A stretch of 64,000 nucleotides of DNA from Paenibacillus sp. HW567 (lineage in GTDB: Bacteria; Bacillota; Bacilli; Paenibacillales; Paenibacillaceae), in NCBI RefSeq assembly GCF_000374185.1, contig NZ_KB910518.1, positions 1,730,546 to 1,794,545 of the forward strand, in the 5' to 3' direction. Positions 30,902 through 49,012 of the stretch are shown piece after piece. The notes below the pieces were generated by a model. That model was given only the letters and a program-made list of their open reading frames with translations. It ran no database searches and had not been told where the DNA came from. The position numbers were made by a program, and so were the translations under genes. How positions within the stretch are numbered: the first letter of the stretch is position 1; each line of letters opens with the position of its first letter.

Positions 30902-30997
30902 TATTAGTGCGGAATTTCTCCACACTTCGTGCGCAATTACTCCACACTTCATTTTGTCGAAGTTCAATTGGTCCTTCTTGGGCGTTGAACGCCTATG

Positions 30998-31053: not shown

Positions 31054-31262
31054 TGGTATACTAGGGGCAGAGGCGGTATCGCTTGGTCGAACTGTACTCA
31101 TGAATACACCGTTTTAATTTTTGGAATTACCTTCATAACTGTATTTCACGGTTACGTTGGATTCTGCTCTGAGCCGTAAGGACCGAGACAGAAGGGACGA
31201 TCGCGAGTGACTCTTTTTTGCCCATCGGACCTTTTTAGCGGACCATGCTAAAAGGTTTTTTT
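31054..31262 (+). promoter_or_regulatory. panB promoter and structured leader with terminator
   Basis: An extended -10, TGGTATACT (31054-31062), is followed by about 190 nt of leader. Outer pairing GGGCA (31065-31069) with TGCCC (31219-31223), plus GAG/CTC, can close a large folded domain. Then an intrinsic terminator ACCTTTTTAGC/GCTAAAAGGT (31229-31256) with a seven-T tail follows, 49 nt before panB. Layout is that of a riboswitch or other cis-regulatory RNA. A conserved 'pan' RNA motif upstream of panB is known in Firmicutes; I cannot confirm that this is it. Confidence 0.6.
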
Positions 31263-37168: not shown

Positions 37169-37282
37169 AGGTTCTTGATCCTGCTATTGTTTTTGTCATC
37201 ATATTCGGATTTGCTTGTTAATTCCGTCCTTTAGCAGCCTGCCCAGTATGGGAGGCTAAAGGACGGTCCTATACTTACGAAG

Positions 37283-37436
37283 CGCTAACAAATACTTATG
37301 CGAATGCTTGCGAAGTGAGTTTTGTACGAAGTGTAATCAGGAAGTTAATTGCTAACAAAACTTAAGCGGATGCTTACGAAGTGAGTTTTGTACGAAGTGT
37401 AATCAGGAAGTCAAATGCTAACAAAACTTTGAGGAG
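37283..37436 (+). repeat. Tandem hairpin repeats in the rex leader
   Basis: GCTAACA recurs at 37283, 37351 and 37417 (periods 68 and 66). Each full unit is an imperfect palindrome whose arms are ACAAAACT and AGTTTTGT, with an inner AAGC/GCTT mini-stem. A linker ACGAAGTGTAATCAGGAAGT follows. The third unit is cut off after ACAAAACTT, which abuts the GAGGAGG ribosome site of rex. The free last arm could pair with the preceding AGTTTTGT. The same repeat family lies before proA (48831-49012). Basis: direct reading; function unknown. Confidence 0.8.
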
Positions 37437-37444
37437 GAGAAAAT

Positions 37445-38098
37445 ATGAAATCAGATAAAATATCAGAGGCCGTCGTTCGCAGACTCCCTGTGTACCTGCG
37501 GTTCCTGAACGATCTCCAGAAGCGTGAAATTCCCACCGTCTCTTCTCAGGAGCTGGGGCAGAAGCTCGATCTTAATCCGGCGCAGATCCGCAAGGATTTG
37601 GCCTATTTTGGTGATTTCGGCAGAAAAGGCATCGGTTATGATGTGTCTTATTTGATTGAGAAGATCCGCCATATTCTGAAGCTGGACCAGCAAATCAACG
37701 TGGCGCTTGTGGGAGCCGGTAACCTTGGACACGCTTTATCCAATTACAATGCTTATTTGAAGGACACCATGAAAATCACCGCGGTATTTGATTCCTTTGC
37801 ACCCAAGGTGGGGCAGATGATTAACTCCCTTACCGTACAGCCCATGGAGGAGCTGGGCAGCACGATCCGTGAACAGGGAATCCGTATCGGAATTATCACG
37901 GTGCCTGACAGCGAAGCTCAGAACGTGGCTGACATCCTGATAGACTCAGGCATTGAAGCGATCCTGAATTTTGCACCGGTCATTTTGAAGACCCCGGCCA
38001 ATATTCGCGTTCATGCCGCTGACTTTACAACTGATTTGCAGAGCCTGGCTTATTATTTGCATGATGGAAAGGACGAAGTGGAAGATGAGCAGCAATAA
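37445..38098 (+). CDS. rex: Redox-sensing transcriptional repressor Rex
   Basis: This 217-residue repressor senses the NADH/NAD+ ratio and controls fermentation and respiration genes. The N-terminal winged helix reads SEAVVRRLPVYLRFLNDLQK and QIRKDLAYFGDFGRKGIGYD. A Rossmann domain follows with VALVGAGNLGHALSNY, and the C-terminal swapped helix ends the protein. GAGGAGG precedes the ATG. It overlaps the deaminase gene by 14 nt. The nearby hbd and ackA are typical Rex-type metabolic genes, but no clear Rex operator was found in front of them. Confidence 0.95.
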   Translation: MKSDKISEAVVRRLPVYLRFLNDLQKREIPTVSSQELGQKLDLNPAQIRKDLAYFGDFGRKGIGYDVSYLIEKIRHILKLDQQINVALVGAGNLGHALSNYNAYLKDTMKITAVFDSFAPKVGQMINSLTVQPMEELGSTIREQGIRIGIITVPDSEAQNVADILIDSGIEAILNFAPVILKTPANIRVHAADFTTDLQSLAYYLHDGKDEVEDEQQ

Positions 38099-47569: not shown

Positions 47570-48817
47570 TTACCCCCGGATTTGCCCGGAGCCATGAATT
47601 ATATATTTGCTTGAAGTGAGCGCTGGCAGGCCCATAGGGCCGCGGGCATGGAGCTTCTGGGTGCTGATTCCGATTTCCGCCCCGAATCCGAACTCAAAGC
47701 CGTCAGTGAACCGTGTCGAGGCATTATGGTAGACCGCAGCGGCATCCACTTCCTGCAGGAAACGCGCCGCATTTGCAGCATCCCCGGTTACGATGCATTC
47801 CGAATGCTTGGTGCTGAACTCGGCAATATGCCTCAGGGCTTCATCCAGACCGCCTACAATTTTGACGTTTAGAATATAATCGTTATATTCGGTGGCAAAA
47901 TCCTCCTTGGTCACAGGCAGTGCCCAAGGCACCAGAAGTACCGTTTCAGGACAGCCGCGCAATTCGACATGTACCTCGCGGAATGCCTCCGCCAAGGACA
48001 GCAGGTGCTTGGCGGCATAATCGCGATGCACAAGCAGAGTCTCCATCGAGTTGCACACAGAGGGGCGCTGGGCCTTCGCGTTAAGGCTGATGCGCTGTGC
48101 CATATCCGGCTCGGCGCTGGCGTCGAGATAAGTATGGCATATGCCTGCCCCCGTTTCAATTACAGGGACGGTGGCATTAAGCACAACGTTCTGGATCAGC
48201 GAGCTTCCGCCGCGAGGGATAATGACATCAAGCAGTCCGTTCAGCTTAAGCATCTGATCTACGGAGGAGCGGCTCTTGTCTTCGATAAGCTGCAGCGCAT
48301 GTTTTGGAATTGCCGTTGTGTCGAGTGCGTTATGCAGCACTTCTACGATCTTACGGTTGGACGACAGGGCAGAGGAGCCGCCGCGCAGAACAACGGCATT
48401 GCCTGTCTTCAGGCAGAGGCCTGCTGCATCCACGGTTACATTGGGACGCGCTTCATAAATAATGCCGATGACACCGAGCGGGACGCGGATTTTTTCAATA
48501 TACAGTCCATTGGGACGCTCAATCGTCTCCAGATGATCCCCAATAGGGTCCGGGAGCTCGGCGATTTGCTTCAGTCCCTCGGCGATGGTCTGTATCCGGT
48601 GAGCGTCCAGCGCCAGACGGTCAAGCATGGATTCCGGTGTTCCGCCGAGCCGGCCCCGCTCCAGATCCTCGCTATTGGCGGCAATGATGGACGGCGCTTC
48701 GCGGACCAGGGCATCCGCCATGACAAGCAGGGCTTCATTCTTCTGATCGGTGCTTAAACTTGCCAGATCACCTGTAGTTTCCTTAGCTAACGTTGCCTTG
48801 CTTACAACCTCACTCAT
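47570..48817 (-). CDS. proA: Glutamate-5-semialdehyde dehydrogenase
   Basis: This 415-residue enzyme reduces glutamyl-5-phosphate to the semialdehyde. The signature VPVIETGAGICHTYLDASAE and catalytic-Cys region RPSVCNSMETLLVH are present; RVPLGVIGIIYEARPNVTVD is also conserved. ATG at 48817 has AGGAGGG at 48824-48830 on the minus strand. The 215 nt between proB and proA is filled by tandem hairpin repeats, unusual for an intra-operon junction. Confidence 0.96.
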   Translation of the reverse strand: MSEVVSKATLAKETTGDLASLSTDQKNEALLVMADALVREAPSIIAANSEDLERGRLGGTPESMLDRLALDAHRIQTIAEGLKQIAELPDPIGDHLETIERPNGLYIEKIRVPLGVIGIIYEARPNVTVDAAGLCLKTGNAVVLRGGSSALSSNRKIVEVLHNALDTTAIPKHALQLIEDKSRSSVDQMLKLNGLLDVIIPRGGSSLIQNVVLNATVPVIETGAGICHTYLDASAEPDMAQRISLNAKAQRPSVCNSMETLLVHRDYAAKHLLSLAEAFREVHVELRGCPETVLLVPWALPVTKEDFATEYNDYILNVKIVGGLDEALRHIAEFSTKHSECIVTGDAANAARFLQEVDAAAVYHNASTRFTDGFEFGFGAEIGISTQKLHARGPMGLPALTSSKYIIHGSGQIRG

Positions 48818-48830
48818 GGTTAACCCTCCT

Positions 48831-49012
48831 AAAAGTTTTGTGAGCGATACTTCCTTGGGATACATCGTACAAAACCCGCTTCGAAAGCATCAGCTTAAGT
48901 TTTGTGAGCGTCTGCTCCCTTGAATTTGCTTCGAACAAAACTCGCCTCGGAAGCATTCGCTTAAGTTTTGTGAGCGATACTTTCTTCGAACAGTACTGCA
49001 CCGGAAGCGCAA
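48831..49012 (-). repeat. Tandem hairpin repeats in the proB-proA gap (same family as rex leader)
   Basis: Read on the minus strand, ACAAAACTTAAGC recurs (49012 side to 48831) with units of about 65-68 nt. Each unit forms arms ACAAAACT/(A/G)GTTTTGT with an inner AAGC/GCTT stem. Loops vary (GAAT, TGAT) while the stems are kept, with one change that keeps pairing through a G-T pair. The last unit is truncated after ACAAAACTT directly before AGGAGGG of proA, exactly as at rex. A degenerate third unit lies next to proB. A reading of up to 80 codons passes through (49052-48810) but is probably a by-product of the repeats. Confidence 0.8.

Follow-up and report, generated by a model that had tools for sequence, protein, structure and literature searches.

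RNA thermometers of the fourU and ROSE kinds are leader hairpins near a Shine-Dalgarno (SD) sequence, with the SD inside the helix, whereas REP/BIME elements with RAYT transposases are short palindromic repeats present in many copies per genome and, to our knowledge, not tied to SDs. We know of neither structured leader RNAs nor interspersed repeats that are strictly welded to the SDs of unrelated genes. The pan motif (RF01749), characterized by bulged A residues, is found before pantothenate-pathway operons according to the sections of its description consulted (PMC2864571). The BOX elements of Streptococcus pneumoniae are, in the consulted sections of the account dealing with them, concentrated in the gaps between convergent genes and regarded as parasites (PMC3049150).

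The element described here precedes rex in the 64,000-nt stretch of Paenibacillus sp. HW567 DNA that we analysed (the window), and its kind lies between structured leader RNAs and interspersed repeats. It resembles the fourU and ROSE thermometers in being a leader hairpin near an SD, but its SD lies outside the helix; with the REP/BIME elements, it shares the form of a short palindromic repeat with many copies per genome. Like the pan motif, it is a small stem upstream of genes, mostly in tandem, but a junction with the SD is not part of that motif's description in the sections consulted (PMC2864571). The likeness to BOX extends to an interspersed family with a variable-number tandem module, predicted RNA hairpins and hosts without common function (PMC3049150, sections consulted), and many dispersed copies with a variable tandem module were indeed found, with tens of matches in many genomes. 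However, the arrays examined here lie on the sense strand, are joined to an SD and keep their helices by compensatory changes; rather than having no tie to start codons and being enriched between convergent genes, they end at a sense-strand SD. With moderate confidence, and on the strength of comparative sequence analysis, we favour the view that the array represents an unnamed, order-wide family of cis-acting RNA leaders, in which a hairpin presents and insulates the SD and which spread by copying.

The first-pass annotation of this DNA described tandem hairpin repeats ending at the rex ribosome site, and these are real: two 66-nt tandem units occupy window positions 37284-37429 and run up to the rex SD (2.2 copies with 92% matches by TRF), the 3' end of the array reading GCTAACAAAACTT-TG-AGGAGG; the ATG of rex follows at 37445. 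Chance can be dismissed as the origin of the array: a 20-nt probe from the unit, AGTGAGTTTTGTACGAAGTG, has 2 matches in the window and none in 100 shuffles. There is no intact copy of the first arm, which is present in the degenerate form ACAAATACT. A covariance model (R1) matches at rex over 37354-37437 with an E-value of 1.3e-19. Positions 37270-37275 are likely the rex -10 box, judging by their sequence, so that the array would occupy the entire leader. The same design had been noted upstream of proA, and there a minus-strand array (48975-48831), with units of 66 and 64 nt, is likewise joined to an SD (48830-48825). The features of the two loci are as follows.

37270-37275, plus strand: likely rex promoter -10 box TATACT (sequence; TATAAT at the matching place in orthologues, e.g. 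L226 and L228)
37284-37429, plus strand: two-unit array with 66-nt units before rex (sequence, TRF, blastn)
37288-37296, plus strand: degenerate first arm of the rex array (sequence)
37306-37315, plus strand: 5' box of unit 1, GCTTGCGAAG (sequence; positions that hardly vary among the aligned HW567 units)
37318-37325, plus strand: 5' strand of hairpin 1, AGTTTTGT (sequence; probe match; covariation)
37355-37362, plus strand: 3' strand of hairpin 1, ACAAAACT (sequence; covariation)
37372-37381, plus strand: 5' box of unit 2, GCTTACGAAG (sequence; identical box in the order-wide form)
37384-37391, plus strand: 5' strand of hairpin 2, AGTTTTGT (probe match; covariation)
37421-37428, plus strand: 3' strand of hairpin 2, ACAAAACT, the 'lone 5' arm' of the first-pass annotation (covariation)
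37432-37437, plus strand: rex SD AGGAGG, 3 nt behind hairpin 2 (sequence)
37445-38098, plus strand: rex (NCBIfam)
47573-48817, minus strand: proA without its stop codon, start at 48817 (NCBIfam)
48825-48830, minus strand: proA SD AGGAGG (sequence)
48831-48975, minus strand: sister array before proA, two units plus closing arm (sequence; R1 match)
48834-48841, minus strand: 3' strand of the last proA hairpin, ACAAAACT (sequence)
48869-48876, minus strand: 5' strand of the last proA hairpin, GGTTTTGT (sequence)

Rfam 15 has no family reaching its gathering score at either window array or in 12 loci of the compact form introduced below. With a lax threshold, three sub-threshold matches were obtained within 37180-37480, the best being ROSE_2 (E-value 0.03; 21 bits of the 65 needed), which spans a hairpin resembling a terminator together with the opening bases of the array (37223-37304). 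The only match at gathering score in the window is a pan motif (RF01749) at 31070-31195, and two other short tandem repeats are located at 30907-30950 (period 22) and 1590-1627 (period 20). In the literature, we found no account of the element, and the listed papers containing one of its short motifs deal, judging by their titles, with other subjects; since most subscription journals lay outside the search, this does not establish that it is not in print.

The expectation that such arrays always end before an SD held in three sets of loci, two of them with random controls, and copies at random positions with no link to start codons were not encountered. In the HW567 genome, a single contig of 6.84 Mb, blastn gave 48 matches at E<=1, which reduced to 44 loci, including 4 duplicates, and 40 of the 40 remaining loci end in a ACAAAACT-like arm joined to an SD-like sequence (<=2 errors); the terminal pattern ACAAAACTTTNAGGAGG, with one mismatch allowed, has 46 matches in this genome and none when read backwards. 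Because a circular test was to be avoided, the GTDB species genomes were searched with an SD-free probe from inside the unit, which matched at least 111 stretches, and the 80 listed, all in Paenibacillus-titled records, contain 80 arrays. Two of these are cut by the locus edge, and the other 78 all end in arm plus SD (<=2 errors), with an ORF of at least 40 aa starting 4-11 nt behind in 77 of the 78; the same rule is satisfied at 295 of 4000 random places of these Paenibacillus loci. In a genome from another family of the order (G167), a 12-nt box probe, ATGCTTACGAAG, has 63 matches and none when reversed; 30 of the 63 were made into loci, giving 19 distinct arrays, all of which are followed by an SD (one mismatch) and an ORF of at least 45 aa. 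Under a strict rule requiring the SD within 62 nt of the last box, the count remains 19/19, as opposed to 148/4000 random places. The SD-free-probe and G167 counts are free of bias towards the SD, the HW567 blastn set less so, whereas R1 and R2 (the compact-form model, see below) contain the SD, which biases SD counts starting from them; the own and related genomes are not independent samples.

Among 169 distinct arrays, from loci chosen in several ways, the SD stands at the expected place behind the last arm in 164. In four of the exceptions (L036, L037, L041 and L042), the SD is shifted by an odd loop, and the fifth (L143) is a copy of the SD-less repeat considered below. A recognizable upstream arm (at least 6 of 8 letters) begins 100 of the 169 arrays, compared with approximately 4% of random places and 147 of 152 internal units. 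The arrays of this set comprise 1 to 5 units, and those of G167 up to 10.

In the first-pass annotation, the hairpin was drawn between the 5' and 3' arms of one unit (hairpin A), which is not the pairing followed by the covariation. The stem does covary across an alignment of 374 unique units. The 3' arm is linked to the arm that follows it downstream (hairpin B) by the top-ranking column pair, 35 x 66 (98% standard pairs, including wobbles), and by the one in third place, 36 x 65 (90%). The pair ranked second, 2 x 7, with 37% standard pairs, falls within the 5' arm and probably reflects a shift in the alignment; the signal for hairpin A is weak and far down the list (columns 2 x 35, 59%). In 77 of the 343 units with both arms, the neighbouring arms are unlike, and in these hairpin A loses out to hairpin B: the downstream arm pairs better in 61, the upstream arm in 9, with 7 ties (39, 5 and 33, respectively, when G.U is allowed). 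Thus, the partner of the 3' arm, AGTTTTGT, is the arm that comes next in the downstream direction, ACAAAACT. Accordingly, the terminal arm forms a helix with the previous unit's 3' arm, as had been suggested; it does stand just before the SD, 3 nt upstream, but rather than being unpaired, it closes the last hairpin.

The pairing persists where the arms diverge. When terminal arms were chosen for unusual sequence, with the partner ignored, 26 matches were obtained in 100 genomes and none in the reversed control. In the 25 of these 26 loci that were read, with the best-pairing 8-mer taken by script and its place checked by eye, GTAAAACT arms face AGTTTTAC in 10 of 12 cases and ATAAAACT arms face AGTTTTAT in 6 of 13, the remainder being wobble-compatible in part or else broken. 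Among 35 sites of the distant genome G016, where the arms can be as divergent as AAGTTATTTAA/TTAAATAACTT, 32 have stems of 7 or more pairs, counting wobbles. A strand matches its same-locus partner better than the partners found at other loci in G016 (35 sites), G012 (35) and HW567 (53), with 0/2000 permutations in each case, and in the small set of unusual arms, with 30/2000. Compensation at orthologous genes is seen above all for cdd, where the own species has AGTTTTGT/ACAAAACT as its helix, G016 has AGTTTTC/GAAAACT, and two named relatives have AGTTTG/CAAACT and AGTTTTATT/AATAAAACT; the L017 gene behaves similarly. At proA, the arms show no compensation between the own and the distant species, and at apt, the stem is shifted, in part without compensation.

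In an alignment of 34 compact modules (L448 left out; 8 of the 34 rows already in the alignment behind R2), 99.3% of cells pair, compared with 94.4% after shuffling and at most 55.1% when slid, and 11 cells are changed on both sides versus 1.3 in shuffles, none of 500 shuffles being as high. These compensatory changes support a helix, as is expected of cis-acting structured leader RNAs. Counts of G.U versus A.C mismatches do not separate RNA from DNA, and the last pair is ambiguous in the alignment. A wider pseudoknot drawn by eye, GCUUCC x GGAAGY, was discarded, as its positions hardly vary and give no signal among the column pairs listed. CsrA sites, whose motif is ANGGA, were also set aside: by eye, the spacer GGA is not conserved among HW567 copies.

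Folding predictions bear on whether the last arm masks or frees the ribosome site, both of which had been envisaged. Masking is not borne out: the SD lies outside the helix, and in long-loop leaders its predicted unpaired probability is 0.42 in native sequences and 0.39 in shuffled ones (higher in 25/51, p 0.22). As for freeing, the SD is slightly more accessible in the compact form (0.49 versus 0.42; higher in 32/44, p 0.0002), but there is no such difference in the long-loop form. An RNA thermometer or other SD-masking leader was therefore rejected, given that the helix ends before the SD and predicted accessibility is not lowered. The compact modules fold with a mean z of -1.91 relative to shuffles, partly due to the choice of loci; the whole rex array is not unusually stable (z +0.28). 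It is because the compact module folds better than shuffles, with a freer SD, that we commit to an SD-presenting cis hairpin, to which these models lend modest support, as they do to an insulating role.

A switch, in which the last arm would pair by turns within its own hairpin and with the previous arm, masking or freeing the SD as it did so, appears highly improbable. Two mutually exclusive helices can be drawn in the long-loop units and both receive some predicted probability (mean 0.32 for helix B and 0.17 for helix A, with A likelier in 51/129; at rex, hairpin A alone has -9.2 and hairpin B alone -4.9 kcal/mol), but the covariation follows the downstream pairing, a clear upstream arm is absent from 69 of the 169 arrays and the long-loop SD is as accessible as in shuffles.

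R1 has matches in all 36 other Paenibacillus genomes searched, with 3 to 77 in each (77 being the number scored), and in 7 of 23 genomes from other families, most of them weak. The arrangement seen across the order is a compact form, GCTTACGAAG-NN-AGTTTTGC-loop-GCAAAACT-CTTAGGAGG, and four HW567 sites (L042, L292, L296 and L297) also carry a module with a loop of a few bases only. With the compact-form model, R2, matches at E<=0.001 were obtained in 100 of 119 genomes of the order and in 25 of its 34 genera sampled, the best E-value being <=1e-6 in 90 of the 119 genomes; E-values of both models are rough, owing to short calibration. Both models also match the SD-less repeat (11 HW567 loci), and hence match numbers per genome are not numbers of SD modules; part matches on the reverse strand occur too. 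The best R2 locus was taken from each of 30 genomes; these loci have the sequence GCTTACGAAG-NN-AGTTTTGC-TNAN-GCAAAACT-CTTAGGAGG or nearly so, and an ORF follows in 30/30; the SD is AGGAGG in 28, AGGTGG in 1 and not clear in 1 (L450), a count biased by the presence of the SD in the model. The window's long-loop units thus form a single branch within a wider family.

In HW567, 63 of 64 sites (24 of them found with R1, and with 11 SD-less-repeat loci and 4 duplicates left out beforehand) lead into an ORF of at least 50 aa, with 58 ATG, 3 GTG and 2 TTG starts. L044, before rpmJ (37 aa by eye), was missed on the length limit alone, and at L030 the assigned start is not the one adjoining the array. 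Hosts named from profiles include rex, proA, rhaA, nifB, thiM, mtrB (TRAP), groEL, cdd, apt and ahcY, as well as hslV, thrS, sdhB, ftsY, galU, atpG, gatB, topA, rplY, a pdhC-like gene and others; hslV and rplY have part of the module only, and several names come from scores below the curated cut-off, with only the first 250 aa searched. A coherent regulon was considered and dismissed: the named hosts belong to many pathways, mostly housekeeping, and none unites them. With 35 sites read in each of two genomes, 9 in G012 and 5 in G016 have hosts in common with the HW567 set, where some 0.4 would be expected by chance by our own estimate, assuming some 6000 genes.

By a crude ORF rule, 26 of the 63 HW567 sites begin within 61 nt of a same-strand upstream stop codon, and the hosts include sdhB, atpG and the pdhC-like gene, which are genes located inside operons. 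Both observations would fit a transcript-stability or processing element, that is, a barrier or RNase site leaving an inner cistron with a new, stable 5' end just ahead of its SD. We consider this improbable, the AU-rich long-loop hairpin being weak.

Single sites come and go, as seen at rex and proA, and units expand and contract. In a tree of 70 of the 99 rex genes of the genus, the element and its remnants (18 rows) are confined to two clades, within which there is decay down to the bare last arm; 52 of the 70 rows are without the element (one of them, L266, with its leader cut off). Most of the 30 proB-proA loci read, among 100 orthologues, have no unit or a decayed one, and the related genomes G094 and G084 differ at proA by one unit between two arm copies. 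Because most genomes read at these two genes have no element or a decayed one, these comparisons indicate that it is dispensable there. Unrelated HW567 loci can have near-identical variable spacers (0.97 identity for proA/L017 and 0.94 for L014/ftsY), whereas units before the same gene in other species are 0.55-0.87 identical, although the HW567 comparison has more candidates; this suggests that some spacers were recently copied between loci. Many arrays have the same GCTNACAAAACT at the start and end, forming a direct repeat. No blastn match was found in phages or plasmids, and no exact pattern match in viral contigs.

The HW567 genome also contains a palindromic interspersed repeat of about 230 nt, in at least 11 copies (L298, L302-L306, L308, L309 and L313-L315, with one also in L143), which has no SD at its end. 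Many of its ends resemble TATATAAGTTGAAC / GTTCAACTTATATA, and it encloses a near-compact module, GCTTACGATGCCAG-CTTTCC-TACG-GGAAAGCT-CTCAGGCGG; possibly, it is a MITE that captured or donated the compact module.

These data bear on an alternative that we regard as unlikely, namely, that the element is a selfish BOX- or REP-like repeat that inserts at, or carries, an SD, with the hairpin needed by its mobility machinery rather than by the host. Its patchy presence and decay at rex and proA, the range of model matches per genome of the genus (in which units and some SD-less repeats are counted), the near-identical spacers at unrelated loci and the sharing of the core by the SD-less repeat are all in keeping with such an origin. 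Yet the helices vary by locus and nevertheless remain paired, including at orthologous genes, and no clean empty site with a target duplication was seen among the sites compared. The convergent-gene enrichment of BOX, in the consulted sections of its account (PMC3049150), also contrasts with the position of the present arrays before start codons. Mobilization by a RAYT was rejected: HW567 has one PF01797 match in its genome, no clear unit lies beside this Y1 transposase match, and the 3.3 kb examined there contain only two look-alikes of the unit core, each with 4 errors.

Anatomy, SD placement, a helix kept by compensatory changes and wide spread are computational observations, and the SD-presenting leader would connect them in the following way. 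A module begins with the conserved box GCUUNCGAAG on its 5' side; a hairpin follows, its 3' strand ending approximately 3-4 nt short of the SD, and after the SD comes the start codon. Modules often occur in tandem, with the SD placed after the final one. Acting in the mRNA, the closed hairpin would fence off the upstream region and present an unpaired SD, whereby a cistron, often an inner one of an operon, would be given an initiation rate of its own. The probable reader of the invariant box is the ribosome or a common RNA-binding factor, the conservation of the box being the basis for this suggestion. Copies would arise via tandem duplication and copying between loci and decay where they are not needed, as the sequence comparisons suggest. 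A bolder proposal, which we put forward only tentatively, is a portable, order-wide, self-copying initiation module with the common factor or ribosome as its reader. Placed ahead of dozens of unrelated cistrons in each genome, it would confer shared post-transcriptional control on a whole set of genes, many of them operon-internal, and tandem copy number would set its strength. Interspersed bacterial repeats are often seen as noise; here, a repeat is joined to the ribosome sites of dozens of genes, in most sampled genomes of an order that includes nitrogen fixers such as HW567 (nifB). This makes it testable whether bacteria evolve and distribute a ready-made translation-initiation device, and the tandem copy numbers provide a natural series for asking how structure just upstream of the SD sets initiation.

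Several individual loci of the order deserve mention. In G037 (L424, L418 and L420), three compact modules lie between a stretch resembling the terminator of a T-box leader and a presumably leuS-like gene. A module, or a bare hairpin, stands before a gene that we take, from its protein, to be rpmJ in two families of the order (L422 in G037 and L044 in HW567). In G167 (C1:1735590-1736010), ten tandem compact units with a 42-nt period precede a single gene.
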